Part shown: in pieces, positions 3,377-50,589 of the stretch
Layout: each line of letters starts with the position of its first letter
How positions within the stretch are numbered: position 1 is the first letter of the stretch
Assembly (NCBI GenBank): GCA_012862575.1
Contig: BLSF01000059.1
Span: forward strand, 186,001-250,000
Length of the DNA: 64,000 nucleotides
Reading direction: 5' to 3'
Origin: Parietichytrium sp. I65-24A
Taxonomy: Eukaryota > Sar > Bigyra > Thraustochytrida > Thraustochytriidae
Translations under genes and position numbers: made by a program
The notes under the pieces: model-generated
Database searches by the model: none
What the model was told of the DNA's origin: nothing
Seen by the model: the letters and a program-made list of their open reading frames with translations, nothing else

Positions 3377-6300
3377 TTACTGGTCCTCGTCCAAAACATC
3401 AAACTCGGAACCCATGCTGCCTTCCCCATCGTCGGTGACCCATTCGTACTCGCTATCGTCATCCCCGTTGTCTTCTTCCTCTGAAGAGGAGTCCAAGCCC
3501 TCCACGTCGATGTTGAGGTGTATTTTGAGCTCCAGCGCAACGAGGTCGAACTTTTCACGGAACCCTTCGCGGTCCTCTTTGGAAACCTTCGTAGACTCCA
3601 TCGATCCGAAAACCTGCAAAGCCTTCGCAACGCCAGGAAAGTCGTTGCCTGTCATTCCGAGCTCTTTGGCGTCCTGCAAGTTTTTGTACAAATCCGGCGC
3701 GTTCTTGCGCTGGCAAGAGAGCTCCAGAGCTTCCAGCACCTGTCTTTCGCGCTCCAAGCGCCGCAGTTTCTCGTTGGCAATGGTCAGAATGGAATGCTGC
3801 AGGTTCCACACCTTTGCCAGCTCGAGATTGCGGCGAATCTCCTTCTCGTTGCTCTCCTCGATTGCTTCCCGGAGTTGACGACGGATCTTCGAGTGCATGC
3901 GACGGATGTATTCGCAGCGTGCGAGATACCTCCTTCCAAAGCGCTGCATGTATATGACGGAAGGCTTCACCAACAGTCTCAGAGCAGTTTCGAGGTTGTT
4001 GCGGGAGGTGACATTCATGAAGACTTTTTCTTCTCCGTCTGATATTTCCCATTGTCCGATCAAAAAGTTGGCGCCAGCCAGTAAAGAACAGAATTCACGC
4101 AATGCCGGCAGAGCTTTACTCTTGTCGCCTTTCTTCTTCGTCTTCATGAAGCTAAAGGTAGCAGTGACGTGCATGTTGTGGTGGAGTGGGCCGTAGCGTA
4201 GGATAAAGTCCCGCGATGGAATGCCAGGTCCGCGGAGTGAATCATACATCCGCGTGCAGATGGCACTGGAAAGGCCATTTTGGCGAATCTGATCGAGCAG
4301 ATAGTGTGCGTCAAAGCGGCCATACTTGTCACCTTTCTTGTTGGCAGAAAGGCAGATTACGTTCTCAACCTGAGTTCGGGCCAGGATCGCCACAGCTCGG
4401 TTCGCCTCAGTAAAAATGCGCTTTGCAGTATCGTTGACCTCCGCCCTCCGCACCTGGGAGACGCCTTTTTCACTGCTAGGAGAAGAGGAGTCCTGCGCTT
4501 GATCGGTATCATTGTTCTCCGTGGCGCCTCCAAGGCTGCTAAGAGCACTGTCGTCCAACTCGGCCATCGCTTCGATTTCCCGTTTGCCAAGAATACCGCT
4601 GCGCTTAATGGCACTGCTCTTGAAATTTACCACTTCGCGGATCAACGGATTGGAAGACTTGTCATGGAGTAGTTGCATCACCTGCATTGGAATCGAGTGT
4701 GCTTTGCTTCGATTGATGAATTCGTCCAAATGATACTTGACGATGCCCCCAAAGTGTTTGATGCTGAAGTCAGAGGTTGTGGCCCTTGTTAGGTACTCGT
4801 TGTCCTTCTTCTTGCGAATAATCCTGCGCGCAAGGCCCTTGTCGCTGCCACCGGGAACGTTGATCTCCTCTTCAATGAGCTGGAGGACCCCAAGACGCTC
4901 ACTTCCGGCGGTACCGTCATTACCTGCTGGTGCGCTTTCCCCGCTTGCTTTGGTTGTCGGCGCTGGACTGGAGTAATTTGCACTTGGACGCCGGTTTGCT
5001 TGATAGCGGCTGGCCATCAGACGAACCACACTGGGGCGCTTGACTATCGGCGCTGGAGCCTTCGCCTTGCCGGTATACCCCACATCAAAGTTGGTCTGCA
5101 CGGCGCCCAAGAAGAGATTGAGCACCATCTCATTCGCTGGCGGATAACACACTGGCGCAATCATCTTGGCCTCTTCCTCCAGCTTGCGAGAGTTGCGCTC
5201 GACGATGTCCTGCATGAAGAAAGTGTGGAAGCGTTCTAGACGGTAATTCTGGTACAAGTCCTCCAAGGTGCTATCCTTTTGTACAAGAGAGGATGTCTCC
5301 AGCACTCCGATGATTCCAATCATGCCCTTGCTCTTCGTGAGCGTGCGCTGCACGGAGCGCCGGAGCGACAGCCTTCCCTTGAGCGTGCGGCCGCCTTTTT
5401 TGGCATTCGAAGTGGCTCTGCTCCGCCCATCGTCCTCCTCATCCTCGTCCACCCACCCTAAAGCCGTAGCGTTCTTGATGACCTTTTCGATTCGCGCAAC
5501 CTCTTTGTTGACGGTTTCCACGAGCCAATCAAAGAAAAGAGAGTACAATACGCGCGCAAGACCATCGCGCACCGAGACTTGTTCGCTCACAGAGCGCTCT
5601 TTGAAAAACCTTTCCGACTTGACCTGAAGCGTTTTCACGCGAATTGCAGTGCGAAGCTCCTCGAGCCCAACCCCGAGAACACTTTGTGAGGCACTAGAGT
5701 TTGTCTTGAATTCAATGTTGCCGGTCTCCAGGATTCCAACGAGCAGATTCTCAATGTTGCTCATTAGCTCTTTGGAAAAGCCCAGCGCTTTCATGCAGCC
5801 TAGCGTCTCAGACCACTCCTTGACAGGCTCCTGCGCATAGTCGCTCTTCTTCTTGCGCTTGGCCAAATATGAGTATGAGCTGGTCTTGAGTTTGTTGTGC
5901 TTCACGATACTATCAAACACCGGGAAGACCGGGTGCGCGTTATCGGTTACGCGCGACTTGTCCAGACCGAACGCGTTGCAGATCGCACCAATTAGAGTTC
6001 CACTGTTGAGGTTTGCTTTTGCTTCCATACGTTTGCTGGTGCGCGAAAACCAAGCCGGATTCGCTGCCTTCTTCTTCGGTGGGAAGAACATCTGCAGCTC
6101 TGTCCAACGAACGTAGCCCGTCCCTCCAAATTCTTGCAACAAGGTGTCACCGGAAAGAAGTTTGGACCACCATTTCGCATCCGGAGGCTTGGCGAGCTGA
6201 ATTGAGCGGAGCAAGATGAAGCGGGTAACGTCTCGCTTGCCGCTCGACTCTGCTCCGTTCACGACGATCGACTGTGACTGCAACCCGTTGCTTTCCTGCA

Positions 6301-6916
6301 GTTTGAAAAAGGACCGCTCCACGAGACTATTCAGGTCGTCTTTGCATGCCAATGGGTCATTCTTTTTCTTTGGCCTAGCGCGCTTTGATTTCATGGCCTT
6401 GCTGCCGTCGTCCGAAAGCGTCTGGAGCGCTAAGAAATCTGTGTCAAAGTCTTTGTTAAGGAACAGCAAGATGTTATCGCAAACCCGGACAAAATTGTAC
6501 CCGAGCTCGAACCTCATGCGAACGTTGTGGAATAGAGCAGGCTCGGAGATGTCCCAGAGCTTGCCAGGATCGAATTCCGGCCATGCTTGGAGATTCTCCC
6601 TTCCCATGGGCAGGATCGTAGCCGCCATCGCATCATCCACTTCTACTTCTTTTACGCGCCCATGTTCTTTGTACAACAGTATGCCGCCGGCGGGAGCGTC
6701 TCTATCAAACGACCTTTTCACCTTGGCAGGCCGGAACACAGGGCCGTCCATCGGCCTCAGCCCGCGCACCACAAGCTTGTCCTGCCGAAGCCACACGAGC
6801 TGGCCCTTCACAAACCGCTCATACTTGGCATTCTCTTTGAGCGAGAGCACGTACTGCAGCAGCTCATCCTTCTGCTCAATGTAATGCGGCAGCTGCAGCT
6901 GCAGCGACCCGGCCAT
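3377..6916 (-). CDS. Myosin-head protein with degenerate nucleotide-binding motifs
   Basis: The product is 1179 residues from the ATG at 6916 (the open frame begins two codons earlier with GTG). An SH3-like N-terminal subdomain (about 38-110) precedes a myosin head: WDISEPALFHNVRMRF at about 121-136 matches the motor's LNEPxVLxNLxxRY region, and a VxxLLHDKSSNPL segment matches the loop-2/actin-binding part. YGRFDAHYLLDQIRQNG matches the converter-proximal GKFDxxxVLxQLRCNG. One IQ-like motif (about 984-1006, MQRFGRRYLARCEY) follows, then coiled coil and a very acidic C-terminus. The P-loop reads GAESSGKR instead of GESGAGKT, and the switch II region reads VLETSS instead of DIxGFE. I did not find a canonical switch I. 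It is therefore probably unable to cycle ATP normally and may act as an actin- or calmodulin-binding scaffold. That role is inferred. Confidence 0.85.
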   Translation of the reverse strand: MAGSLQLQLPHYIEQKDELLQYVLSLKENAKYERFVKGQLVWLRQDKLVVRGLRPMDGPVFRPAKVKRSFDRDAPAGGILLYKEHGRVKEVEVDDAMAATILPMGRENLQAWPEFDPGKLWDISEPALFHNVRMRFELGYNFVRVCDNILLFLNKDFDTDFLALQTLSDDGSKAMKSKRARPKKKNDPLACKDDLNSLVERSFFKLQESNGLQSQSIVVNGAESSGKRDVTRFILLRSIQLAKPPDAKWWSKLLSGDTLLQEFGGTGYVRWTELQMFFPPKKKAANPAWFSRTSKRMEAKANLNSGTLIGAICNAFGLDKSRVTDNAHPVFPVFDSIVKHNKLKTSSYSYLAKRKKKSDYAQEPVKEWSETLGCMKALGFSKELMSNIENLLVGILETGNIEFKTNSSASQSVLGVGLEELRTAIRVKTLQVKSERFFKERSVSEQVSVRDGLARVLYSLFFDWLVETVNKEVARIEKVIKNATALGWVDEDEEDDGRSRATSNAKKGGRTLKGRLSLRRSVQRTLTKSKGMIGIIGVLETSSLVQKDSTLEDLYQNYRLERFHTFFMQDIVERNSRKLEEEAKMIAPVCYPPANEMVLNLFLGAVQTNFDVGYTGKAKAPAPIVKRPSVVRLMASRYQANRRPSANYSSPAPTTKASGESAPAGNDGTAGSERLGVLQLIEEEINVPGGSDKGLARRIIRKKKDNEYLTRATTSDFSIKHFGGIVKYHLDEFINRSKAHSIPMQVMQLLHDKSSNPLIREVVNFKSSAIKRSGILGKREIEAMAELDDSALSSLGGATENNDTDQAQDSSSPSSEKGVSQVRRAEVNDTAKRIFTEANRAVAILARTQVENVICLSANKKGDKYGRFDAHYLLDQIRQNGLSSAICTRMYDSLRGPGIPSRDFILRYGPLHHNMHVTATFSFMKTKKKGDKSKALPALREFCSLLAGANFLIGQWEISDGEEKVFMNVTSRNNLETALRLLVKPSVIYMQRFGRRYLARCEYIRRMHSKIRRQLREAIEESNEKEIRRNLELAKVWNLQHSILTIANEKLRRLERERQVLEALELSCQRKNAPDLYKNLQDAKELGMTGNDFPGVAKALQVFGSMESTKVSKEDREGFREKFDLVALELKIHLNIDVEGLDSSSEEEDNGDDDSEYEWVTDDGEGSMGSEFDVLDEDQ

Positions 6917-7776
6917 TCTCACACCAAACTAAACGACAGCCTACACCACCACCACCTTCTCACACTCACACTCACGCAAGCGCCACGCCCACCGCCCACC
7001 GCCCGCGACAGACACAGACACAGACACACACAGACACAGAGTCAGTGAGACAGAGAAAGAGAGAGAGCGCGCAAAGTCGCCAGCGAGTGAGCGAGAGAGA
7101 GAGAGAGACAGAGAGAGTGGGTGAGTGAGTGATTGACTGTGAGTGAATGTGAATGAGTGAGTGTGCAGTGCAGCTTCCTTCCCTCCCGTATAATAGCCCA
7201 CAGCCTAGTCTAGAGAGCGGTGCATAAGCTTAGCGGAGAGTATCAGCGACGACGCCTTCAACCTGTTGGGCTTCCTACCCGCGCGACGTAACTTTCTACA
7301 ACACCGTCGAGCACTTGTGCACTAGTCGATAGTCAAATAGTCAAATGCGAAGACGGCGATGAGCTCGATGAGCTGCGATTGTGAATGTTAATGTGAATTC
7401 TGAGCTGGGAATGCTCACTGTTCTCACCGTTCGCAGACAGGACAGAGAGACAGACCTCCCATTCGTTCTGGCCCGGCCTGCAACTCGAACACTCGAGCAC
7501 TGGAGCACTCGAGCGTGATGATCTGGAACGGGACATCCGTCATACCTGTCAGAGTTCGCACAAGCTTTAGTTCGCTCGCGAGCTGGGTAATGCTTTATGC
7601 TGGGTAGGTAAGTGAGTGAGCGAGTTATGCTGGGTGGACACATATGATTGAGCCTCAACAACCACGGGCTCGAGTAGGAGTGCACGTGGGCTTCAAGTTG
7701 TTTTGTTCAAAATGAAATGACTTGAGCCGAGTCGAGTTGAGTTGAAGTGAATGGTAATGGTATGGAGTGGATGAAC

Positions 7777-18152: not shown

Positions 18153-20237
18153 TCATTGTGCGTTCGCCCGCATGCAAGTCCAAAAGTCCTGGCTTAGGAC
18201 GAAAAACCTGTCGGGCTGAGACGGGTGCGATTGGAGCTGCAAAGGACCACATTGCTCCGTCCGAGTATACCCGACAAAGCCGCTTTCTTGGAACGCTCGA
18301 ACCACGCCATTTGCATCGACAGTCACGACCAGATCCGGACTCTGCAAAGGCATCACGCTCACGATGGGCCCCGCGATCCCGGCGAGCTGTTCTTGATCGC
18401 ACAATAACGCTGCTCTTTTGGACATTGAGGGATGCAAAAGTGCAATCTGGCCATCATCACACCCCACTATGATCCGACCAGTTCCGTCGACACAAACCGA
18501 CAGCGGTGTTCCATCCAAACCCCCTATGTAGGCAAACTTCGCCCCGTTCTGCATGGACAGCACCTCCTCAACAAACCCGTCTTCTGCTATGAACGGATCG
18601 TCTTGGATACTCTGGCGGCTACTCACGCTGTTCATTGTGGCCACCTCGCGATTTAGCTTGTGCTTGTGCCTAGCCTTCTTCCGCTCATCGATGTAGTCGA
18701 TCCAGGCCCTACAAGATGTTGAGAATCTTGCGTACTTTGGTCCTTCCTTCTCCGTGTCATTCAACTTGGCTTGCGCGTACTCGATGCCCGAGTCGCGCGG
18801 TGCAAGCAAGAGCACCAAATCACCAGTTGAGGTACCAACCACAAAATCAGTCTTGTTGCCGTCTAGAGGGGCGATGCATGTCCAGAGCCTCTTCTCCGGC
18901 TGCGATTTCCCATTGTCCGTGGACTGCGATGTGGACGCCAAGATGCGGCTGCTTGACTGCGAGTTACTGGAAGATTGGCTCTTGAAGCTTTCCATATTTT
19001 TTCTGGTTCCCATGTTGCGCACTTGCGGCTTTCCTAGCGAAAGGGACTCCAGTAAATTATTCACATTACAGCTCCATAAGTTTTTCAGACCGATATCAAA
19101 CGCGCGTACCATTCCTTGATTTACAAGGATGATGGAATTTAGGCCAGGAGAGTACTCGCAGCTGGCGATCCCCGGGCTCGTGATCGGCCGTTCCACAACG
19201 ATGTTGGCGTCCTCGAGCCACCTCAGCCCCTCGCAGTCTAGGTCTACCTTTTGTTTCCTCACAGCTTCGGATGGATTACTCTGAAAGAGGCGCTTAAGCT
19301 CCCGAAACTGCAACATGTCCTGCTCGGAAACTAGCCCGTTCGCTCTCACCTCAGGCTCTCGCGAGACCTTGGCGACTAAAATTGCACCCCTTCCTGTGCG
19401 GGTTGCCGAAAATACCGCTATCCACTCTGTCGAATTTGCGGCCTTCTTTCTGCCCGACCCTTTGCCCGATGATGCCTTGGTATTCGCAGACGACAGCGCT
19501 TCGCGTTTGTTGTTGCTCTTTGGACCGCCAGTGGCTTCAGCCAACTCGCGATCTTTCTTGTCGGCTTCAAACATATCCTTGAGCTCCTGTGGGACCTGAC
19601 CGCCAAGATCCAGGCACAGGCAGCAGGCCACAACGGCATGTGGATCGTCTGGGGTCACCTCCCGTACTGACTCCGTATAGTCAACCAGAGTTGGAGCCCA
19701 CCACCCTGGTTGATTGGTGGCACGAGACTGTGTTTCGGATGATTGGTTGTTCCCAAAGCTACCTTCCTTTGACGCAATTTGAAGCGGCTGAGTTCCATAC
19801 TTCCAGACGCCCATCATGCCGTGGCTCCCAACGCAAATTAACGACTCGATTGCCGGCCTCCAGGACCACAATAAACAATTCCCAAAAGGAACGAACGCCC
19901 TTTGCTCCACTTTAGGGCCGCTCGCTTTCACTAGCTTGAGCTGCTGAAACTCTTTTCTAATGCGCTCGACAGCTCTGCCTAGCTCGGCCTTTCTCACTTT
20001 TTTCTCTTTTGCGGCCTCCTTCTTCTCCAGCTCCTCGAATCTTTGTTTCTTCTCCAGCTCCTCCTTCACCCTCTGCTGCAGCATTTGAGCATTATATTGC
20101 ACTTGCCATTCCAGCGCCTTGTCTTTGGATGAAATTTTGCTTTGCAGGGTCTCCACGCGCTCCATGAGGGCCTCCGCCTGTCCGCGGACCCTGTCGAGCC
20201 CGCGCTTTCCTGCGCCTTGTGATTTATGAGCGTCCAT
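18153..20237 (-). CDS. Coiled-coil plus beta-propeller-like protein, function unknown
   Basis: The product is 694 residues from the ATG at 20237. The open frame continues 62 codons upstream, but those lack an ATG. Residues about 10-105 are charged and helical with Lys/Glu heptads (coiled coil). The rest alternates strand-like segments and loops typical of WD40/propeller proteins, for example LICVGSHGMMGVWKYG, FVVGTSTGDLVLLLAPRD, GRIIVGCDDGQIALLHP and LVVTVDANGVVRAFQESG. A Ser/Lys-rich linker with a GSGRKK stretch interrupts the propeller. I do not recognise the family. Ciliary, trafficking or RNA-processing WD proteins all show this arrangement, so no role is assigned. The 3' flank carries the long AAAC array. 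Confidence 0.75.
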   Translation of the reverse strand: MDAHKSQGAGKRGLDRVRGQAEALMERVETLQSKISSKDKALEWQVQYNAQMLQQRVKEELEKKQRFEELEKKEAAKEKKVRKAELGRAVERIRKEFQQLKLVKASGPKVEQRAFVPFGNCLLWSWRPAIESLICVGSHGMMGVWKYGTQPLQIASKEGSFGNNQSSETQSRATNQPGWWAPTLVDYTESVREVTPDDPHAVVACCLCLDLGGQVPQELKDMFEADKKDRELAEATGGPKSNNKREALSSANTKASSGKGSGRKKAANSTEWIAVFSATRTGRGAILVAKVSREPEVRANGLVSEQDMLQFRELKRLFQSNPSEAVRKQKVDLDCEGLRWLEDANIVVERPITSPGIASCEYSPGLNSIILVNQGMVRAFDIGLKNLWSCNVNNLLESLSLGKPQVRNMGTRKNMESFKSQSSSNSQSSSRILASTSQSTDNGKSQPEKRLWTCIAPLDGNKTDFVVGTSTGDLVLLLAPRDSGIEYAQAKLNDTEKEGPKYARFSTSCRAWIDYIDERKKARHKHKLNREVATMNSVSSRQSIQDDPFIAEDGFVEEVLSMQNGAKFAYIGGLDGTPLSVCVDGTGRIIVGCDDGQIALLHPSMSKRAALLCDQEQLAGIAGPIVSVMPLQSPDLVVTVDANGVVRAFQESGFVGYTRTEQCGPLQLQSHPSQPDRFFVLSQDFWTCMRANAQ

Positions 20238-21489
20238 TCTCTCTCGACAATATACCCCTCTTGGCCAACCGCGACATGGGACGTTGCTTGCCACTCGCGC
20301 CGACTTGCACACCCACTTTAATGAAACCACAAATGGGTCGCCAAGACTCAGGAACTTGATCACAAGTGATGCACGAGTTAATTGGCTTGTCTGCACACAG
20401 ACACAGCCTCCCACAAAAACCACTTCGCAGACTATTCAATGAACTCAACTTGCTCGCAAAGACACAGAGTAAAACCGTTTAGGGCCTTCTGGCCGCACTT
20501 TTGAGCCCTGTTACCGACGCGATTTGGGCTCTGCGATCGACTTCAGACCTCTCCTTCCGCAGCTCCGCAGCCTCTCACGCGCTGCACATCCCGCGCACTT
20601 TTTCCAGTCGTGCGTTCATTGAACAAAAACAACTAAGTCTTCGAGCCAACATCCTTAATGTTTGGGCCGACTGAGGACTACCGCTTTACCGGTCACTTTC
20701 AGACTATGTTCAATGAAGCATTTTCACTGAACAGGCGACGGGAGAAGAAGAAGGGCATGTCACGAGGACGTGCTTGTGACGATAGTTGCCACGCATTCCG
20801 GGACAACGGAGACAACGGAGCTCTGAGAGCTCTGCCATGCTCTGCCAACAGAGATAGATGTCAACATGTGCCAATAGAGTCCACAGAGCCAACAGTGAAC
20901 GATCAACACAATGTGCCAAAAGTGAAAGTGCCAACAGTGCCAACTTAGAAACTCGTATCAACTTATGAACCTAACCATTGTGCAAGATGAGAATGCACCG
21001 TTCACACCAAATTTATGCATGACAATGTTCATCGAAGGAATAGAACGGAAGAAAAAGGCCTAACAGAGAAATGAAATCAAATGCAATGTTCACAAAAGTA
21101 AAAGGAATGAGACCTCAGAGAATCCAAGAAGAGTCGCGACCAAAAGGCGGACGAATGCGAAGATAGTTGACAGACAGAAAGCTCGCTCCTTGTCTTTCCT
21201 CCCTCATCCATCCTCATCCTCCCTCTTTCACTGCATTGGTACTAGAGTACAACCCAACTAACGCACACGCACGCGTGCATCTTTTCACCTTTTCACTTCA
21301 CTGATGAATGAATGAATGAACAATGGCTTCACTGTCAATCAATGACTCGGAACATGAACAGTGAACGCTCACGCGACCAGCTCCTACCCAGGAGGACAAT
21401 AGGGGACTCCGCTCGTATCCATTCAGAAAGTAGAGCAGCGCTAGCTAGAGAGTCTTTGCGCAGTGCACGCGCGGATGCTAGACTAAAAA
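20238..21489. other. Divergent promoter region between propeller and transporter genes
   Basis: It holds the 5' flanks of two divergent genes. Short, imperfect repeats built on gtgccaacag occur at about 20860-20945, and a GAAT run at about 21302-21319. No further gene was recognised. Confidence 0.55.
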
Positions 21490-23363: not shown

Positions 23364-25235
23364 TTACTGTGCAGCGGTCACCCTCGCCAGTGCCGGAGAG
23401 GAGGAAACCGTTAATAGTGCTTGTTGTAATTGCTTAGTTGTTGGCTTTGACCGAGGGGAGATCTGAGGCAATCTTAGACCCCTGGAAGTGTCGGCGTCCG
23501 CCTGTGGCAAGTGTTTATCGTCGCCAAAGGTCCTCTTGAGTTGCTCGTCGGTTAGGAACTTTTCGAATGACTCTTCTAGCATTCTTGACCTTGTAGTATA
23601 CCACCGATATTCGTTCTCGAAACCCTTATTGATCCTGAAAAATGTTCTCATTGCATGAAATCTCGCCACACATCGGTTCGACGTTTTGATTCCGATCGCA
23701 TCAAACAGCTTTCGAAGGCAAACGGGGCAAAGATTCATGGGCACGAATCCCATCTCTTCGGCATTTTCGAAGCCGTTCATTGCGCAAGAGTGGTAAATAC
23801 AGTTGTGCATCCCGAAGAAAAGCATCATATGGTGAACCGCCCAAAGACAACCTCGCCGCAATAGTGTAATCTGTCTCTCGGACATCGGCTCCCTGGTGAA
23901 TTCGTCCTTAGGCCCGCTGACAAACCACGGATCTAGATTCGCCAAACTCAGCACAGCAACTCGCTTTGCAATCGCTGCCTCGCATAATTCTGGCACGTGC
24001 ATAATATAACTCCCGTTTGTGGAGAAATTTTTGGCATCCCTCACAGCATGCAATGTGATGCCAAGGAGCATGAAAGCGTCGTTTGGAACGAGTTTCTTGA
24101 GGTACTTTTGAGCCTGCTGCAACGGAATTGCCTGGGATTGGTTGAATGTTAGTATTCCGTTGCGCTTGCTTTTGCCGATTGCCCGGTCTTTCGTGAACCC
24201 TGGATATTCGACGCTGATTCGCATACCACGGTCTTTGTGGATACCACATAGAGGCATGCCGGGCAAAATGAGTACCTGCAGTCCGTAGAAGAAAGCTCGC
24301 AAATACTCTGCAATTTTATTGAGCTCGCACCCACCGCGATACTCATCGAGATCCCCGAGCGCCACAAGGTATATTTTGCTGCGGTTGCTTCCACATGGAA
24401 CTGCTGGATTGGTTTCCGCCCACTCCGGGTATGTCTGTCCGCCCATGAGCTTTTCATACTTTTGTGCCCAGTCGTCTCTCCAAGGATTCTGAATCGGGGC
24501 AAACATGCCGCTTTGGTCAGCCTCGGCATCGAACGCAAGCTGTAACGGCGGACAAAGGGATTGCGTGTCCCCAACAGCAAAGCGTCGCTCCCCAGCATCT
24601 GGTAGCTGTGGTTCTACTGCAGGACGGTATCTCTTCTGATCGATCATAGTTTTTACAAAAATATTCAGCGGCTTGCGATTAGCGCGCTGTGACTTCCTTT
24701 GCAACTGTATTGTCCACTTTTGAAACGTGAATTCGAAGCATTCCATGAAGCCGGTGGTATTGAAAATAGAAAACGTCTCGCGAACCGAATCGCGCTGGAT
24801 GATTGTGACCTCATTTTTGTGATGCCCCTGGCCCCGCACCACCGCCATCAAGTTCGTGAACGAAAACACGAAGCTCGCTGTGTCACTTTTATCCTGGTGG
24901 ACCTCGACGCGGTCTGGAAATATCAATAGTCTGCGCAAAAACTCTTTGCGGTCGCCATCCACCCACAAGTAGCCTGCTCGCGTCGCTTGAAACTGGATTC
25001 CGCTCTCAAGCCGATCTCTCTCCAACCTGGCCCAAGTCGACCAGGCAGCAAGCACACGCAGCATCTTGTAGTTCTTGAACACTCCATTATCGCCGCACAG
25101 CTTCTCCACGAACGCCGCCCGGGTTCCCCACACTGCGAGCTTCTTCCGAATGATCCTCTGGATGACCCTCGCAGAATTCACCTTCTTGCGCTGGAAACGA
25201 AGCGCCACTGCCTTGGCGTCATTCTGAAATACCAT
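23364..25235 (-). CDS. IQ + PH-like + archaemetzincin-like protein with a lost zinc site (pseudopeptidase)
   Basis: The product is 623 residues from the ATG at 25235. The open frame extends 68 codons upstream without an ATG. An IQ-like calmodulin-binding motif lies at about 22-36 (ARVIQRIIRKKLAVW). A PH-like strand/helix segment spans about 84-175 (GYLWVDGDRKEFLRRLLIF, ending in a helix with ECFEFTFQKW). From about 285 the protein resembles archaemetzincins (AMZ1/AMZ2): LVALGDLDEY, EYLRAFFYGLQVLILP, then residues 466-488 and NLCPVCLRKL at 501-510. In the family the active site is HExxHxxGxxHC. Here residues 468-479 read HHMMLFFGMHNC, so the catalytic Glu and the second and third zinc His are gone. 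The structural Cys set (C479, C484, C503, C506) and the MNG signature are kept. The protein is probably a non-catalytic regulator or scaffold. Confidence 0.85.
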   Translation of the reverse strand: MVFQNDAKAVALRFQRKKVNSARVIQRIIRKKLAVWGTRAAFVEKLCGDNGVFKNYKMLRVLAAWSTWARLERDRLESGIQFQATRAGYLWVDGDRKEFLRRLLIFPDRVEVHQDKSDTASFVFSFTNLMAVVRGQGHHKNEVTIIQRDSVRETFSIFNTTGFMECFEFTFQKWTIQLQRKSQRANRKPLNIFVKTMIDQKRYRPAVEPQLPDAGERRFAVGDTQSLCPPLQLAFDAEADQSGMFAPIQNPWRDDWAQKYEKLMGGQTYPEWAETNPAVPCGSNRSKIYLVALGDLDEYRGGCELNKIAEYLRAFFYGLQVLILPGMPLCGIHKDRGMRISVEYPGFTKDRAIGKSKRNGILTFNQSQAIPLQQAQKYLKKLVPNDAFMLLGITLHAVRDAKNFSTNGSYIMHVPELCEAAIAKRVAVLSLANLDPWFVSGPKDEFTREPMSERQITLLRRGCLWAVHHMMLFFGMHNCIYHSCAMNGFENAEEMGFVPMNLCPVCLRKLFDAIGIKTSNRCVARFHAMRTFFRINKGFENEYRWYTTRSRMLEESFEKFLTDEQLKRTFGDDKHLPQADADTSRGLRLPQISPRSKPTTKQLQQALLTVSSSPALARVTAAQ

Positions 25236-34122: not shown

Positions 34123-37100
34123 TTACTTGGCACCAGCCTTGGCTCGTCTAGGCTTCATCGGTGTTCCGTCAGGATGAAATGCTCCCAGGAGCTCGATGGT
34201 TCCGTGGCATCTTCCGCACCTTTTGGAGGTCGTATCAAGAGATTTTGAGTGCCTCAGGAATGCAGCTTGACAGGTCGTGCACTCATACCTGAACTTGGCG
34301 TGAATCTTGTACGAATGACAGGTTTGCACTGGATACTGAGGGAATGACTTTGTTGCTCTTGCGCCCCACTTTTTGAATTCAGGACCATGAGGCGGTTTGC
34401 TGACTCCTTGCACAATCCACGCAGCGGCGTGGCAAAGCTCATGGAGTAATGTTTCCTTGAGCCTATCGACTGTGGTCAGCACTTTGTCGGCCAACTCGAC
34501 TTTAGCGACTCGCTTCCCAGCGACTTTGCTTAAGAAGGTCGTGCCAGCAGTTTTGAGACACCTTTTGTTCCACACTATCTCCATGTCAGCAGGAAGAAGG
34601 TTTTCAAACACCAAGCCATTGAACTCCGCATACCAAAATTTCACTATTGCGTCCCGATTCCCCGCAGTGACATTCGTTGAGTCATCCCATATGTTCTTCA
34701 AAGCGCGCTGAGCAGGGGCCTTTTTCTCGGACGTAGAGCTATGCAGGTTGACAACTTGCGTGTCATTTTCCTTGTCTACCAAATTCATGACTGCTGGGAG
34801 CGGTTTCTTAATTGCCGGGCTTGTGGTCCTGTTTTGTTTGATGGGAGTAAAAGGCTTTCGTGCATCCTGTAGCTCGTCAAGAATTCCGCTATCCTCCTCG
34901 ACGTACTCTTCGTCCTGATCACGGTCGCTTTCGGGCACACTACTTGTAACAGAACTTTCGTCGCCTGAGACCTCCACGATGTCAACAACAGCAGCCTTAA
35001 TGCCGACTTTGGACGCTCCTTCTCGCTTGACTTTTGCTGCGCTTGTTCCCTTTCCATCATCCTCGGATGGACGGTAGGAATCGTCCGACAAGCTATCCTC
35101 TTCTTCTTCATCTTCGCTTGCGATGAAGGAAGACTCGTACTTGTCAAGGTCCTCGCCATTGCTGTCCTCCTCTTTATCATCATCATCATCATCGTTGTCT
35201 TCTCCTTCTCCTAAGTCGTCCTTGTCATCAGAAAACTCCCCAGCATCGTTCAACGAGGCGTCATCGGCAGCCTCGCCATCTTCGTCAGTAGAGGAGAGCG
35301 GCGACTCGACGTATTTCACAAGCCTCGACGCAGCGCGTCTCGGGCGAACGATTTGACGCATTGGAGTTTGATCTGCTGAGAGTATGTGGCTCGAGTCCGA
35401 TGAGCTGTCCGCGCCCTCGCCCAACTCCTCTTCGTCATAGTCGGAGTCTAGGCTGTCGTCCAAGTCGATACATGGCTTTTTAAACTTTCCTTTGGACGCT
35501 TGAGAATCTTCCGATTCATTTGTGCTTACCTTGAGTGTAGCAAAGTAATCAGAGATTGTGGTTTTCTTAGTCGCTTCAGAGACTTCTTGTGCGCCCTTTG
35601 TATCGGCAAACGAGCACTCGCTGTCCGAATCTACCAAGTCAACAACGTTCAAGACGCTGTTCTCAACAGCGGTGCCTTGGAAATCCTTCTCTTGTTTGAT
35701 TGGCACTGCCTCTGAACCTGCGACGTTGATCAAAGTCGTCTGCGCAAGAGTCTGGGAAATTGTGCTCTTTCGTTCCAAGTCGTCTTCCGTTGGCTCTCCA
35801 TTTGCGTCAGGGCCGAGAAAACTTTCTCCTTCCACTCTAGAATCATCTGCGCTACGATCAGAGGCGCTCTCCGCGTCCATTTCTTGGGTTGCCGGGAATG
35901 ACATTTCGTCTTCGCTGCTGATGGAATCGTTCGCGTCAATGTTGATTCCGTCGTCGTCGTCAGTGTCAATCTCCTGTGTTGGGAGGTTCGACTCTGTGTC
36001 CTCCTCAAAATGCTCATCATCAGCATGCTCCAAGTCGCCCAAGGGGGCTTCAGATTGAAGGTCTGCCTCCGGTGTCTTTATGGCGTCCCCCTCCGCGGTA
36101 GTGTTGCAGACTGAGTCCCCAGTATTTTCCAGTAATAGCGATTCCTCTTCCACAGAGGCCATTGCTGGACACGAGTCCTCCTCATCACCTACGACAGGAA
36201 CGTTTGCGTCGCGCAAAGCAAAGTCTTTGCTCTCTTGATCTGCAGGTTCACATTTCTGTATCTCCTCGCATTGTGAAGTGCCTTCCAGGCATGAATTCTC
36301 CCTTTCCAAAGCTTGAGTGGCTTCGAAGGATTCCTCAGAATCAGAGCCTTGCTCAACGACATCCCGCGTTTTGCAGATTTCCAGGCTATTCAGCCGCGTA
36401 GAAATAACGTCTGCGTCGTTTAGTTCGCCAATAATCTCTGCATGCCTATGCTCGGTCTGGAATGCCATCGAAAGGCGCTTCATTGTACGCGGTCCCGTCC
36501 TTCGCGTTGCCATTTTGAGGAAGGCTTCCTCTTCAGATGGAAGGTCAATCTTCGTCTTCTCTCCAAAAGCGTCCGCCAAAGAGCCAATGCTCTCGGACTC
36601 GAGGCAGAATCCATCTCCTTCATCTCCTTCATCCCCAGAGCGATCTTCCACCTCCTTGGTTGCTTCTAGCTCTTTAACTGATTCTCCTTCGGATCCGTAC
36701 TCTTCACCACTCTCTTGCTCTTCGCGAAGGCGTGTAAACGATTCCTTTTGACTTGTTTTTGCCCTAGCCAACACAACTTTCGGGCGAGTCGCGCAATCTG
36801 TCTCCTCATCTGACCCAGTCTCAAAGTTGAGCTCTTCGATCATGTCCGCCAACTGTTCGCTCTCAAGGTCGGCCGGATACGCGCTCTTCCTTCCGGCACG
36901 AATCACCAGCGGCGAATCCAAAAGAGGAATCTCGGAGCCAGCGTCGCTTTCGTCGCCAAATGCATCTGCTCGTGCCTCCATGAACCCACTTTCGTCTTCA
37001 GAATCCTCCACCGCATCGTCAAAGTCAGTGCGCGCGTCGGAAAGCTTCTCCACAGCAGATTCGCTCCAGCTCTCTCCTCGCTTCCTCGCTCGCAGCGTGC

Positions 37101-37167
37101 TCGCGTCGAGCTCCAAGGTAGACTCTTCGCAAAGGTCGCTGTCTTCCAGCTCGTCACGGTCCGACAT
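34123..37167 (-). CDS. GCNA: GCNA-like acidic SprT-domain metalloprotease
   Basis: The product is 1014 residues from the ATG at 37167. About the first 800 residues are highly acidic and low in complexity, predicted disordered. The C-terminus (about 815-1000) is a SprT-like domain: KFWYAEFNGLVFENLLP, catalytic HELCH at 909-913 with a third His ligand in PPHGPEFKKW (about 927), and a zinc ribbon (YECTTC ... RCGRCH). This is the arrangement of GCNA/ACRC, a nuclear protease relative of SPRTN/Wss1 that helps resolve DNA-protein crosslinks and preserve genome stability. Two SUMO-interaction-like motifs followed by acids, VVDLVDSDSE (near 35618-35647) and VVDIVEVSGDE (near 34958-34990), and a PIP-box-like TTISDYF (near 35542-35562) lie in the disordered part. 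The active site looks intact. Confidence 0.9.
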   Translation of the reverse strand: MSDRDELEDSDLCEESTLELDASTLRARKRGESWSESAVEKLSDARTDFDDAVEDSEDESGFMEARADAFGDESDAGSEIPLLDSPLVIRAGRKSAYPADLESEQLADMIEELNFETGSDEETDCATRPKVVLARAKTSQKESFTRLREEQESGEEYGSEGESVKELEATKEVEDRSGDEGDEGDGFCLESESIGSLADAFGEKTKIDLPSEEEAFLKMATRRTGPRTMKRLSMAFQTEHRHAEIIGELNDADVISTRLNSLEICKTRDVVEQGSDSEESFEATQALERENSCLEGTSQCEEIQKCEPADQESKDFALRDANVPVVGDEEDSCPAMASVEEESLLLENTGDSVCNTTAEGDAIKTPEADLQSEAPLGDLEHADDEHFEEDTESNLPTQEIDTDDDDGINIDANDSISSEDEMSFPATQEMDAESASDRSADDSRVEGESFLGPDANGEPTEDDLERKSTISQTLAQTTLINVAGSEAVPIKQEKDFQGTAVENSVLNVVDLVDSDSECSFADTKGAQEVSEATKKTTISDYFATLKVSTNESEDSQASKGKFKKPCIDLDDSLDSDYDEEELGEGADSSSDSSHILSADQTPMRQIVRPRRAASRLVKYVESPLSSTDEDGEAADDASLNDAGEFSDDKDDLGEGEDNDDDDDDKEEDSNGEDLDKYESSFIASEDEEEEDSLSDDSYRPSEDDGKGTSAAKVKREGASKVGIKAAVVDIVEVSGDESSVTSSVPESDRDQDEEYVEEDSGILDELQDARKPFTPIKQNRTTSPAIKKPLPAVMNLVDKENDTQVVNLHSSTSEKKAPAQRALKNIWDDSTNVTAGNRDAIVKFWYAEFNGLVFENLLPADMEIVWNKRCLKTAGTTFLSKVAGKRVAKVELADKVLTTVDRLKETLLHELCHAAAWIVQGVSKPPHGPEFKKWGARATKSFPQYPVQTCHSYKIHAKFRYECTTCQAAFLRHSKSLDTTSKRCGRCHGTIELLGAFHPDGTPMKPRRAKAGAK

Positions 37168-37840
37168 GGCTACGAACTTCGTGCACCACGTCGACCAACC
37201 CTGACCAGAATTTCCACGCACGCTCAAGTCCCGCGAGGACTGCCCGCTTTGCACGCGAGTGCTTTGTTTGTGTTGCTTGCGTTGCTCTTTGTCTGTTTGT
37301 CTGTAATTCACTCACACACTCGCAATGCTTTTGCTACTTTTAAAATTTAAGCTTTCGCTTTAGCTTTCGCTTTCAAATGTGTTGGCAGTTGGTCGTTAGA
37401 ATCTTTGGAAATTTTGGAAAATATGCTCAGGTACGAGTACTAGATTAGTACTTGCATAATTTTTTCTATTGATAATTTAAGCGTACTACATCTCAGTGAG
37501 CTCTCAATAGAACACTAGCAATTTGACTTATGATAGATTTTTTAAATTTGGTGGGTTTAGGTGTGGTTAGTACTGTTAATGGTCTTTCATAAGGATCTTA
37601 AAGGATACATACGCGTTTTTCACCGGTACTATGTATTAATAAGCTACTACTACCGTTGCAGGACAGCAAGATTGCGAATACCTTCGATTGGATGAGGGAA
37701 CGCAGAGGCAGTCAGAGATGATATCGAGCATGGATACTTAAACTTTGTGATGGAAAAGCTGGCTCACAGACGTGTACTCAGTACCGGTACTCAGTACAGC
37801 AAAGTAGAGCCCGGGCTTGGCTTCTTCATGCTGATTCATA
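37168..37840. other. Spacer between GCNA and the first membrane-protein paralog
   Basis: An agctttcgcttt duplication lies at about 37349-37376. The GTACTCAGTACC-GGTACTCAGTAC double motif lies at 37775-37797. The last 140 bases belong to the segment duplicated downstream at 40.84-40.96 kb. No gene was seen. Confidence 0.6.
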
Positions 37841-39135
37841 CTATGTCAATGAAAAAGAAGTTGGGTAACACATGGTGCATGACCCAGTGATAAACACCAT
37901 CATTGCACAGGTTTGCCCGACGGCGATGAGCAAAGAATTGGTTTTCAAATGCTTCGCATCCACTTCCACCGCGTAAATGTAGCTCTTAAGATGGTCGAAT
38001 AGGCATCTTGGAAAGAGCCCCAGAGCAGTGCGCCAAGCAATCGATTGCAAGCCATCTAATTTCATAAGCGACAGAGCGGCAAGCGCGCCGAGCACCACAG
38101 CTTGTCTCTCGCCAACGACTTCGCTGATTAAAAGCTCTGGACGAATTGCGCGAGATATTTGGGCCACTTTGTGGAGCACAAAGAGGTTCTCTTGTGGCGT
38201 TATTTTCGAGAGTTTCTCTCGGGTTTTGAAATATGCGTAGGCAGTTACCAGGTCCACCAAAAATTGCAGCGCTAGAGTCAGCAAGAAGTCTTTGGTGTCC
38301 TCGGTGAGCATGAGCACAGCCATGCACGGAGCCGTGAAGGTAACGACCAGAAATTGATTCAGGATGCAGACGTTGCTCAGCCTATTTTCGTCGACTGCTC
38401 CACCGTCTTTGGTCGACCCGAATGTACGAATTTTGAAGCGTAGCAAGGTTGTCGCAACGGGGTACACGAACCCAACAAGTCCGACCTTTACATTACTAGA
38501 GAGGAAATCGGTCAAAGAGAACTGGACGAAAAGAGACACCATCAGCGCGCTGGCGCCAGTCAAGAGGTGTCTCAAGAACACTCGAAACAAGCCCTGTACT
38601 GTGCGGAACCTTTTGATCTCGAACACACAAATGAGGTACGTGAACGCAAAAAAATTAAAAGTCACAAAAGAAAAAGAGGATAACACGCCAAATTCAAACG
38701 ATGGGTCTCGAGCGAGCGGCACAGCAAAAGCCGCGATCGCGAGGGACATGCAAAGAGTACGAAAAACCCGCAAAAGCTTTCTCTTCGACCCCACACAGAC
38801 GAGAAAAAATCGCAGCGAGGAGGCTCCGCAAAGCACACCGGCGAACACGTCATAGCCACGGAGCACATCTTTGCTTTTGCACAAATCCTCGGGGCTTCGC
38901 GCATTGATCAAAAGCGTCCAGTGGTTCACACCGCGCAAGAGCTGCTCGTCCAAGGCAAATAGCGAGTACGTTGCTGTCGTTCCTATCCATGTCAAGACCA
39001 CCTGCGTGAGAGTCGAAAGGAAGATGCGGCTTTCTTTCCGCAACCACTGGGCGAAGAACTCGCGCGTCTTCGCAGCCATTGCCTCGCGCGCTCAGTCACC
39101 CGCCACACTCATATAATCCGTTGCCTCATCGCAGC
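37700..39135. repeat. Segmental tandem duplication, copy 1
   Basis: This unit contains the 412-residue membrane gene plus both flanks. It matches 40840-42245. Flanking matches include gagcatggatact before the 3' end and the shared promoter-side string tcgcgcgctca followed by a conserved 'atccgttgcc' block. Boundaries are approximate. Confidence 0.85.
37841..39079 (-). CDS. Multi-pass membrane protein, family A paralog 1
   Basis: The product is 412 residues from an ATG, with about 9-11 hydrophobic segments and no recognised domain. It begins MAAKTREFFAQWLRKE, followed by the first span (VVLTWIGTTATYSLF). Notable conserved points are LDEQLLRGVNHWTL, GFVYPVATTLLRFKIRTFG, ISEVVGERQAVVLGALAALS and FDHLKSYIYAVEV. 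It is about 80 percent identical by eye to the 409-residue neighbour at 40958-42187, and the upstream DNA is duplicated too. No signal peptide is obvious. Comparable points (a GE motif inside a span, and a D-x6-9-VE motif near the end) occur in the family B pair at 49-54 kb. A transporter or channel role is only guessed from topology. Confidence 0.75.
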   Translation of the reverse strand: MAAKTREFFAQWLRKESRIFLSTLTQVVLTWIGTTATYSLFALDEQLLRGVNHWTLLINARSPEDLCKSKDVLRGYDVFAGVLCGASSLRFFLVCVGSKRKLLRVFRTLCMSLAIAAFAVPLARDPSFEFGVLSSFSFVTFNFFAFTYLICVFEIKRFRTVQGLFRVFLRHLLTGASALMVSLFVQFSLTDFLSSNVKVGLVGFVYPVATTLLRFKIRTFGSTKDGGAVDENRLSNVCILNQFLVVTFTAPCMAVLMLTEDTKDFLLTLALQFLVDLVTAYAYFKTREKLSKITPQENLFVLHKVAQISRAIRPELLISEVVGERQAVVLGALAALSLMKLDGLQSIAWRTALGLFPRCLFDHLKSYIYAVEVDAKHLKTNSLLIAVGQTCAMMVFITGSCTMCYPTSFSLT

Positions 39136-40839: not shown

Positions 40840-42245
40840 GAGTGGAACCCAGCGGTCGCAGATAGAGATGGTATCCGAGCATGGATACTTTGTGACGGGA
40901 AAGCTGGCTCACAGTCGGTTCCAGTACAGCAGCGTTGGGCTTCTCACTTTGATTCAATCAAAAGGAAGCTTGGTAACACATTGCGCACGATCCGGTGATG
41001 AACACCTGTACTGCACAGGTTTGCCCGACGGCGATGAGCAAAACATTGGTTTTCATATGCTTGGCCTCCACTTCCACCGCGTAAATGTAGCTCTTAAGGT
41101 GGTCGAATACGCATCTTGGAAAAAGCCCTAGAGCAGTGCGCCAAGCAATCGATTCCAAGCCATCTGATTTCGTAATCGACAGAGCGGCAAGCGCGCCAAG
41201 CACCACAGCTTGTCTCTCACCGACAACTTCACTGAATAAAAGCTCTGGACGAATCGCGCGAGATATTTGGGCCACTTTGTGGAGCACAAAGTGGCTATCT
41301 TGTGGCGTAATTTTCGAGAGCTTCGCTTGGGTTTTGGAGTAGGCGTAGGCAGTTACCAGGTCCGCCAAAAATTGCAGCACCAGAGTCAGCAAAAAGTCTT
41401 TGGTGGTCTCGGTGAGCATAAGCACAGCCATACATGGAGCCGTGAAGGTAATGACCAGAAATTGATTCAGGATGCAGACCTTGCTCAGCCTATCTTCGTC
41501 GGCTGTTTCGCTGGCTGCGAACGACCCGAATGTACGAATTTTGAAGCGCAGCAAGGTTGTCGCAACGGGGTATACGAACCCAACAAGACCAACCTTTACA
41601 TTTCTAGGAAGAAAATCGGTCAGAGAGAACTGCACGAAAAGTGACACCATCAGCGCGCCGGACCCAGTCAAGACATGCCTCAAAAATACTCGAAGCAAGC
41701 CCTGCACAGTGCGGAACCTCTTAGCCTCAATCACGCAAATGAGATATGTGAGTACAGCGAAAATTAAAAACACAAAACCAAAGGAGAACAGCACGCTAAA
41801 GACAACCGAAGAGCCTCGAGCGAGCGGCACAGCAAAAACCACGCTCGCTAGATAAATGCAAAGAGTGTGAAACCCGCGCAGAAGTTTTCTCTTGGACGAC
41901 ACGCAGATGAAAAAGAACCTCAGCAAGGAAGCGGCGCAAATTGTACTGGCGACCACGTCAAAGCCTTTGAGTACGTCTTTGCTTCCGCACAAACCCTCCG
42001 TGCCTCGCGCGTTGACCCAAAGCGTCCAGTGATTCACACCACGCAAAAGCTGCTCGTCCAAGGCAAACAGCGAGAACGACACCACCGTCCCAATGCACGT
42101 CAAGACCACCGGCGCGAGGGTCAAGAGGGCGATGCGGCATTCTTTCCGCAACCACTGGGCGAAGAACTCGCGCGCATTCGCGGCCATTGGCTCGCGCGCT
42201 CACTCACCCATCACACTTGCATTATCCGTTGCCCAATCGTGGGGC
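40840..42245. repeat. Segmental tandem duplication, copy 2
   Basis: This is the partner of 37700-39135. It carries the 409-residue paralog and about 50 bases of conserved upstream DNA (tcgcgcgctcactcaccc and 'atccgttgccc'). Boundaries are approximate. Confidence 0.85.
40958..42187 (-). CDS. Multi-pass membrane protein, family A paralog 2
   Basis: The product is 409 residues from an ATG, colinear with the 412-residue copy at 37841-39079. The best conserved blocks are SLFALDEQLLRGVNHWTL, KRFRTVQGL.RVFLRH, MVSLFVQFSLTDFL, KVGLVGFVYPVATTLLRFKI and RPELLFSEVVGERQAVVLGA. Differences concentrate in spans two to four. Both copies are full length and lack internal stops, so both are probably functional. 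The shared promoter suggests similar expression at first; later divergence cannot be judged. No known domain was recognised. Confidence 0.75.
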   Translation of the reverse strand: MAANAREFFAQWLRKECRIALLTLAPVVLTCIGTVVSFSLFALDEQLLRGVNHWTLWVNARGTEGLCGSKDVLKGFDVVASTICAASLLRFFFICVSSKRKLLRGFHTLCIYLASVVFAVPLARGSSVVFSVLFSFGFVFLIFAVLTYLICVIEAKRFRTVQGLLRVFLRHVLTGSGALMVSLFVQFSLTDFLPRNVKVGLVGFVYPVATTLLRFKIRTFGSFAASETADEDRLSKVCILNQFLVITFTAPCMAVLMLTETTKDFLLTLVLQFLADLVTAYAYSKTQAKLSKITPQDSHFVLHKVAQISRAIRPELLFSEVVGERQAVVLGALAALSITKSDGLESIAWRTALGLFPRCVFDHLKSYIYAVEVEAKHMKTNVLLIAVGQTCAVQVFITGSCAMCYQASF

Positions 42246-48981: not shown

Positions 48982-50589
48982 TTAACTGTAAATTGTGCAG
49001 TTACTTTGGAATGAGAAGAGCATGGCGCTTTCATTCGCCAGTAGCTGGCAGTACTTGTCGCGAAGGCCATTGGTTTGCAGCCCAGTGTTGTTCGAGCAGC
49101 AGCACAGGTCAAAGCCTTGGCATGCCCCGAATTGGTCTTTGTAGTAAATGAGGGAGTATACTCCCCAGCTGGCGTACAGTGAGCACAAGGTGAAGGAAAT
49201 GAAGAACCCTTTGTGACGCGACTCCCAGACCCCACGCAAATCAAAGCCTGAGTGGATCTCCACAGCACCGCAGATTGTGTCAGTTAGGAGCTCTGCTGCA
49301 AGCTGGGCGAGCAGCCAGCTTATTACTGGTCCCATGGAAGGTGTCACGTCGAATATAGTCTCGTCGCTCGCAAAGGAGTCCAGCGGCAAGGCCAGTGGCG
49401 CTTCTCTGTAGATCAGTATCAATCCGAAAACCCAGAAAATGGCAATGTACTCTGCAAGCTGCTCTCCAACAAGAAGCATGGCTGTAAAATTTTTCAATGC
49501 CATTTCTTGTTCGGACACACTAGAGGTCAAGGGGTATCTCCACGTTGTTGCCCTGCTGTCTTTGGAAGCAGCGCCTTGCTCGGCAGGCGAGATGCGCGAG
49601 GGCCTGGTCCCTCTATAGGACTCGTGTGAAGGCGAGAAAAAGACCATGGCACTTTCCTGATTGTGTTGTCTCGTCGCACGCCCTCTCAAGAATCCCATGC
49701 ACTTCTTTGCGAAGGTATCACGTTTGTGCAGAGTAAACCGCATAAAGAGCTCCAAGAGCGACTGATACACTAAAGCGACCCCTTGATATTTGTTGAGCTT
49801 TAGAAATGTGAGCCGCACGATTCCAGAGGCAACGATTTGCATCCACAGGAAAAATGGCCACGTTCTTTCATACCTCGCCGGAATTGCGTTGCCAGCCACG
49901 TTTGCAGTTAACGTCAACGAACGTGACGACGTTCGAGCAAGAACGTACCAGAGCTCTCGCACGGTGGGTAGCACGCAAAAAAGCATTACAAGCCTGGAGC
50001 TATCGCTGTCCGCTGGAATAAGATTTAATAACGTCACCAGGATGATGCAGATGAGAACCACGAGGTACTGCTTGAGAGCATGCCAAGGGAGTTTTGAGTC
50101 AGAAGGGAGAAAGAACCTGAACGATACCATGAATGTAGCGAACGGGATGACACTTCCCATCATTCCGAATAGCGACCCGTTGCCAAATATCAACTTCCCT
50201 CCGAAAAACAAAACGTATCCAATGAAGATCCACATTGCAATGAAGGCCGTTGCCCTTCTGCCCACTTCAGCGTACTGCAAGAATGACCACGGCAGAAACC
50301 CAAAAAAGATTACATCATAGAATAGGTCGCTCATCACGTGAGTGAAGAGACTCTCATACTCCTTCATAAAGACCCGTTCACGAGCATGAATACCGACCCG
50401 CCAAGGCGATGTCACAATAAACCTATCATACAAAAAAAACATGCAAAAGCCCACCGCGCTTGAGCTCCCGTACAGACAGAGGCTGAGTGAGACACGAGCG
50501 CCGTCTTTAAGCTCCAGCCACCAGCGACTCCAGGTGCTCGGCGCCACTGCCATCTTGGTCACGCTAACAGCCTCCTTGGATGCTTCCAT
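48982..50589 (-). CDS. Multi-pass membrane protein, family B paralog 1
   Basis: The product is 535 residues from an ATG, with about 10 hydrophobic segments and a hydrophilic loop of about 70 residues (near 300-365) before the LLVGEQLAEYIAIFW span. The C-terminal, probably extracytoplasmic region is Cys-rich: GACQGFDLCCCSNN followed by GLRDKYCQLLANES. No known domain was recognised. It is clearly paralogous to the 519-residue protein at 52343-53902: both share the VGEQL.EY.AI span, L.LPLD.F, a D-x-C-x3-E segment and the terminal GFxLCCC motif. The many Cys suggest disulfide bonds and therefore a surface or secretory-pathway location. Transport or sensing roles remain guesses. Confidence 0.75.
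   Translation of the reverse strand: MEASKEAVSVTKMAVAPSTWSRWWLELKDGARVSLSLCLYGSSSAVGFCMFFLYDRFIVTSPWRVGIHARERVFMKEYESLFTHVMSDLFYDVIFFGFLPWSFLQYAEVGRRATAFIAMWIFIGYVLFFGGKLIFGNGSLFGMMGSVIPFATFMVSFRFFLPSDSKLPWHALKQYLVVLICIILVTLLNLIPADSDSSRLVMLFCVLPTVRELWYVLARTSSRSLTLTANVAGNAIPARYERTWPFFLWMQIVASGIVRLTFLKLNKYQGVALVYQSLLELFMRFTLHKRDTFAKKCMGFLRGRATRQHNQESAMVFFSPSHESYRGTRPSRISPAEQGAASKDSRATTWRYPLTSSVSEQEMALKNFTAMLLVGEQLAEYIAIFWVFGLILIYREAPLALPLDSFASDETIFDVTPSMGPVISWLLAQLAAELLTDTICGAVEIHSGFDLRGVWESRHKGFFISFTLCSLYASWGVYSLIYYKDQFGACQGFDLCCCSNNTGLQTNGLRDKYCQLLANESAMLFSFQSNCTIYS

Follow-up and report, generated by a model that had tools for sequence, protein, structure and literature searches.

Whether a metallopeptidase fold that has lost its catalytic residues continues to serve the cell is the question raised by a gene of 623 amino acids found on the minus strand (23364..25235) of the DNA analysed here, a stretch of 64,000 nucleotides from the thraustochytrid Parietichytrium sp. 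I65-24A that is referred to below as the window. Its product, the window protein, is related to the archaemetzincins (AMZs), whose function is poorly known. For example, AMZ-tk cleaves casein (PMC4681839), the archaemetzincins of A. fulgidus and M. kandleri have complete sites and were inactive in the assays tried, and the activity of vertebrate AMZ1 has been questioned (PMC3427221). A relative that is devoid of the catalytic site and retains the structural zinc ligands would reveal which portion of the fold is important to the cell. A sequence-only reading of the locus had described an archaemetzincin fold fused to IQ and PH-like parts, with its zinc site erased, and had proposed a pseudopeptidase kept for binding.

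Gene structure and coding signal

The AMZ-derived gene occupies a single open frame, with no intron needed, which runs for 691 codons from stop to stop; translation from the ATG at 25235 yields 623 amino acids before the stop at 23364. Codon usage was scored with a model whose training set was seven window frames, all with Pfam matches of E 1.1e-18 or better. With this neighbour-trained model the first five 100-codon slices had a bias per codon of 0.22, 0.18, 0.13, 0.14, and 0.11; it was about 0 in slice 501-600, the last coding slice, and negative (-0.155) in the open stretch upstream of the ATG. As the bias is positive from the ATG at 25235 and negative upstream of it, the assigned start is probably correct and the gene probably genuine. 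The open frame together with the codon bias suggests purifying selection on the gene. The window protein, when searched against its own genome, gave one match of 100%, which is the window gene itself. A BT1-family transporter gene ending at 23295 lies next to it in tail-to-tail orientation.

Relationship to archaemetzincins

The AMZ of Bernardetia has matches in 49 of the 395 genomes of its phylum; loci were drawn from 30 of the places matched in these genomes, and 33 AMZ proteins, all of Bacteroidota and including short ones, were read. One profile comprised 17 long proteins and a wider one 32 AMZs. A protein (L017) that is 96% identical to another (L011) was omitted from both, and a partial protein (L034) and the short ones (L035-L048) entered the wider profile only. 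The search set consisted of the window protein, 476 other frames of the window, the reversed protein, and 1,000 shuffles. The window protein scored 61.7 bits and E 5.1e-18 with the 17-protein profile (best non-target in the set, E 0.39) and E 6.5e-16 with the wider one (best other sequence, 0.062). The AMZ-homologous region spans residues 248-554 (23574..24494, minus strand), and the alignment to the 17-protein profile falls into two stretches, 248-325 and 377-537, with envelopes 239-340 and 356-554. Likewise, hhalign against an 18-protein AMZ alignment returned a probability of 98.3% and E 2.6e-14 (for one comparison) over residues 248-537 and 239 columns. A tblastn search of plasmids found an annotated archaemetzincin of Bernardetia, matching residues 248-555 at 24% identity and E 2e-7. 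The archaemetzincin relationship put forward from sequence alone is therefore upheld by the profile, tblastn, and hhalign results. The sole other plasmid record at E up to 10 was Arsenophonus mobC (E 2), which was taken as chance.

The long Bacteroidota AMZs, such as that of Bernardetia (WP_338815796.1), are collinear with residues 248-555 of the window protein and share with it the GQT, IYL..G.F, and EYL..FF elements, the core, and the Cys4 motif; many of them start with a lipoprotein-like stretch. The blocks that the sequence-only reading had named around the motif were found as described, namely GDLDEY at 294-299, AFFYGLQV at 314-321, MNG at 486-488, and CPVC at 503-506.

The likeness could in principle stem from a cysteine motif that is a chance zinc knuckle in an otherwise unrelated protein, and the silence of Pfam might be counted in favour of this. 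Masking of the motif argues against it. With residues 468-479 masked the E-value was still 1e-11 for the 17-protein profile and 2e-9 for the wider one, and hence the AMZ homology does not depend on the zinc motif alone. With residues 468-510 masked the values were 5.9e-5 and 0.0024 (wider), and residues 1-340 on their own gave 1.2e-4 and 0.0027 (wider). The tblastn match over 248-555 and the hhalign match over 239 columns likewise extend far beyond a knuckle. On these grounds the chance knuckle was rejected, and we hold a non-AMZ origin to be very improbable.

Curated models responded differently from our own. Neither the whole window protein nor its pieces matched any Pfam family, Peptidase_M54 (PF07998) included, and the NCBIfam archaemetzincin model NF033823 reached E 0.041 with the whole protein and 0.014 with a fragment, both sub-threshold (13.9 and 15.4 bits, where the cut-off is 145). 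Sequence searches of the PDB with the protein and its pieces gave no significant match to any chain. Since our own profiles do match, this silence reflects divergence. The profile search that had been suggested as a check was thus positive with the Bacteroidota profiles, blank with Pfam, and sub-threshold with NCBIfam. Viral contigs searched with the window protein (22 pattern matches) and with the AMZ alignment (89) held no relative. An AlphaFold2 model of the whole protein, built with four sequences, had a mean pLDDT of 34.3 and a pTM of 0.23, values too low to justify a comparison of folds.

Catalytic residues lost and structural cysteines retained

Residues 468-479 (23799..23834, minus strand) read HHMMLFFGMHNC in the place of the HExxHxxGxxHC motif of AMZs, and translation confirms what had been noticed there. 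Over the 11 residues of the catalytic place, HHMMLFFGMHN stands where AMZs have HExxHxxGxxH. The first histidine is kept as H468, the glutamate is replaced by His469, the second histidine by Leu472, and the third by Asn478, and an additional histidine (H477) lies one residue ahead of the lost third ligand. All of the 33 Bacteroidota AMZs have the glutamate and the three histidines intact, although these references were chosen by likeness to the intact AMZ of one phylum and the selection favours intact sites; 32 of them fit the regular expression, and the remaining one (L021) deviates by a Thr at the Gly/Ser position.

A second conserved element has gone as well. At residues 397-413 (23997..24047, minus strand), the place of the DL.P...W..VFG motif, which we take to be the substrate edge-strand region of AMZs, none of the seven near-invariant residues is kept and two positions carry similar residues (Ile411 and Met412). 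The alignment there contains an insert and deserves less trust than that over the Cys block. The motif is present in all 15 Bacteroidota AMZs compared.

The cysteine knot and Met-turn at residues 479-506 (23718..23801, minus strand) have persisted in the form C479-x4-C484-x-M486-x16-C503-x2-C506. The AMZ-type signature Cx4CxM x16-17 CxxC is thereby complete, with C479, C484, C503, and C506 as the four cysteines and M486 as the methionine of the Met-turn. The same knot and turn occur in the archaeal AmzA structures 3zvs, 4axq, 2x7m, and 3lmc, to which the window protein has no direct sequence match. In AMZs the Cys4 zinc is reported to be structural (PMC3427221).

The pattern was quantified over 51 columns that are near-invariant (14 or 15 of 15 references; L018 and L019 were additionally omitted from this count). 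The window protein retains 30 of them: one of the four catalytic columns, none of the seven of DL.P...W..VFG, and 29 of the 40 others, among which are the four cysteines, Met486, Asn487, and Gly488. Fisher's test of the catalytic and DL.P...W..VFG columns against the rest gave p 2.3e-4, with the classes set after viewing the alignment. The retained cysteines, the Met-turn, and the C-terminal residues are adjacent and may reflect one constraint. Judged from the sequence, it is confirmed that the catalytic site is lost and that the four structural cysteines, the Met-turn, and much of the core persist. The statement that the zinc site is erased accordingly holds for the catalytic zinc, of which two of the three ligands and the glutamate are lost, and fails in that H468 remains and the Cys4 site is complete.

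An error of assembly or sequencing in the catalytic codons would produce a false loss, and the motif does stand on one assembly only. Counted from the codons, the step from HExxH..H to the motif of the window protein takes at least four base changes with no frameshift, so that an error would have to comprise at least four separate changes, all in frame. In addition, the DL.P...W..VFG element, 55-71 residues upstream, is lost too, and the probable second homologue described below is likewise devoid of the motif. Sequencing error was rejected for these reasons and is regarded as scarcely credible.

It may also be asked whether the protein is still an enzyme, in which H468, H469, H477, Asn478, or a nearby cysteine hold the metal in another geometry and a new general base has been recruited. 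Two adjacent histidines and a further one just ahead of the old third ligand would suit such a site, and Asn also replaces the third histidine in AMZ1 (PMC3427221). Mutants of AMZ-tk in which any one of the three histidines was changed to Asp are reported to retain about 20% of activity, and a change of E to Q left minimal activity (PMC4681839). Against a rebuilt site, Leu472 occupies the position of the ligand expected one helix turn further on, the base is gone, DL.P...W..VFG is lost too, and all four catalytic residues are absent from the second homologue. A rebuilt site is therefore considered quite improbable. With the glutamate and two of the histidines gone, peptidase activity is very unlikely, and the window protein is in all probability a non-catalytic relative of the AMZs.

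A probable second homologue in the genome

A search of the entire genome, 42.5 Mb in 172 contigs, with the window protein returned the gene itself and one place near the start of another contig (C49:1643-2875), with 34% identity over 106 residues and E 1.2e-4. The frame there encodes 410 amino acids from an ATG. Of its four full 100-codon slices, only 301-400 is free of codon bias. It scored E 2e-4 with the 17-protein profile and E 0.4 with the wider one, the latter below a chance frame. In the catalytic region its sequence is KVAAWWTGMRAC, with Lys, Val, Trp, and Ala at the four catalytic positions and hence none of the catalytic residues. The four cysteines, the methionine, and the asparagine are retained, and the N-terminal half aligns poorly. 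From these features it is probably a second AMZ homologue, more degenerate than the window gene. When it served as a query against the same genome, 20 rows came back. Apart from its own locus and the window gene there were 18, all of which align inside its first 161 residues; of these 18, five lie in the repeat-rich start of C49 or elsewhere.

An AMZ with an intact motif was not found in the genome by six-frame searches with PF07998 and three bacterial AMZs in which introns were disregarded. Two of these four queries (PF07998 and one bacterial AMZ) missed even the window gene. As the searches were blind to introns and the queries partly weak, a divergent or intron-broken copy could escape; an intact AMZ is likely absent, as far as such searches of the assembly can tell. 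Two weak additional matches to AMZ queries were dropped, one on contig C35 in a frame that is presumably kinesin-like and one on contig C2 with a Cys-rich start and no visible AMZ motif.

These results bear on the alternative that AMZ function has been lost in the lineage and the window gene is decaying, its frame merely unbroken so far. The more degenerate state of the second homologue would agree with such a course, and if no intact AMZ exists in the genome the enzyme may now be dispensable. On the other hand, the window gene has 623 open codons with bias in five of six slices, and even the second copy is biased in all but one of its four full slices. Moreover, the losses cluster in the catalytic and DL.P...W..VFG columns and the structural residues stay, a distribution that drift alone would be unlikely to produce. 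Decay is thus an explanation to be taken into account, though a rather unlikely one.

The N-terminal extension

About 240 residues precede the AMZ region. The IQ consensus is [FILV]Qxxx[RK]Gxxx[RK]xx[FILVWY]. The strict motif has no match in the window protein, and Pfam has no family for residues 1-75. An incomplete IQ-like motif, IQRIIRK, is present at residues 25-31 (25143..25163, minus strand), and the same form occurred in 34 of 2,000 shuffles. The IQ part that had been read into the protein is consequently not sustained. The region taken for PH-like, residues 70-195 (24651..25028, minus strand), matches no Pfam family, and the best PDB match, for residues 76-192, has E 0.61. A single-sequence model of residues 70-195 is all-beta with seven short strands, at low confidence (mean pLDDT 35.7). 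The proposed coupling to calmodulin or lipid is speculative, since the underlying motifs passed no test, and the layout of IQ, PH, and AMZ parts is to be treated as a lead, not as a result.

Proposed role and comparison with known relatives

Structural residues retained in an open, coding frame fit a folded protein kept for binding. The domain would still fold round the Cys4 zinc, hydrolysis of peptides by the zincin mechanism would be impossible, and the protein would act by binding, with the 240-residue N-terminal extension and the old cleft together determining its partner. Its mode of action might resemble in kind that of CarG, an inactive AMZ-type protein that is complexed with CarD; the window protein is not claimed to be CarG. 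That the protein is kept for binding is fairly probable, and so is the statement as a whole, that of an AMZ-derived, Cys4-folded, non-hydrolysing pseudopeptidase which works in kind like CarG. The core of the sequence-only proposal thus gains from the AMZ homology, the catalytic loss, the retained Cys4 and Met-turn, the coding signal, and the probable second homologue; its calmodulin and lipid partners are speculative.

CarG of Myxococcus xanthus has the motif HQx2Hx2Ex2HCx4CxMx16Cx2C. It is described as having Gln in place of the glutamate and no protease activity, as binding two zinc ions, as a monomer, and as forming with CarD a tight complex that acts as one regulatory unit. Its Cys to Ser variants fail in complementation, that is, the four cysteines are needed (PMC3427221, PMC8156234). 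As compared by this published motif, CarG and the window protein both have the catalytic glutamate replaced (His469 in the latter) and the Cys4 kept with identical spacings of x4, x16, and x2. They differ in that CarG keeps the three histidines, of which two are replaced here by Leu472 and Asn478, and in that the window protein has about 240 residues ahead of the AMZ region and belongs to a eukaryotic genome. In vertebrate AMZ1, Asn, Ser, or Thr stands in place of the third zinc histidine, as Asn478 does in the window protein. By its description, from which the comparison was made, only that one replacement is named, and AMZ1 is an aminopeptidase whose activity is doubted (PMC3427221).

Inactive relatives of AMZs are therefore already known, CarG being an example and AMZ1 with its replaced third histidine a further precedent, and the window protein is a variant and not a new kind. 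The earlier remark that no family of this layout has been described may hold for the layout, since the searches made here found none; it does not hold for inactive, binding AMZ-type proteins, which CarG represents (PMC3427221, PMC8156234). By titles and the starts of abstracts, no published inactive eukaryotic AMZ was seen among the matches listed, most subscription journals lying outside their scope. A review from 2024 on inactive homologues of metallopeptidases mentions in its main text neither M54, archaemetzincin, archaelysin, AMZ, nor CarG (PMC11266112). Among eukaryotes, the window protein would be the counterpart of bacterial CarG, which is inactive. A wider proposal is that the lineage has turned its AMZ family wholly from peptidase to adaptor, with the catalytic member gone and two site-less homologues held by Cys4, one of which is linked at its N-terminus to another signal; this is tentative and on the unlikely side.

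Neighbouring genes in the window

The window carries another zincin, a SprT-like domain with a C-terminal zinc ribbon encoded at 34126-37311 (minus strand). The SprT-like domain matches Pfam at E 4e-23, and the ribbon at E 9e-6, just below its cut-off. It lies at the end of a frame of 1,062 codons, with about 890 residues ahead of it, and its catalytic HELCH is intact, which shows that zincin motifs are not generally corrupted in this window. The neighbours of the AMZ-derived gene include Rab3GAP and myosin families, in a eukaryotic genome. A search for chlorophyll a/b-binding proteins in this genome gave no match. The frame at 3380-6928 (minus strand; 1,183 codons) matches the myosin head in two stretches only, the best being residues 294-481 to positions 149-359 of the 679 of the profile, and is perhaps a divergent motor, on the strength of these partial matches. 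A frame of 760 codons (18156-20435, minus strand) has no Pfam family at E up to 0.01. Two pairs of related frames, neighbours within each pair, were also observed on the minus strand. The frames at 37844-39091, which has no Pfam match, and 40961-42199 are 78% identical over 413 amino acids, and those at 48985-50640 and 52346-53941 are 36% identical over 540 amino acids.
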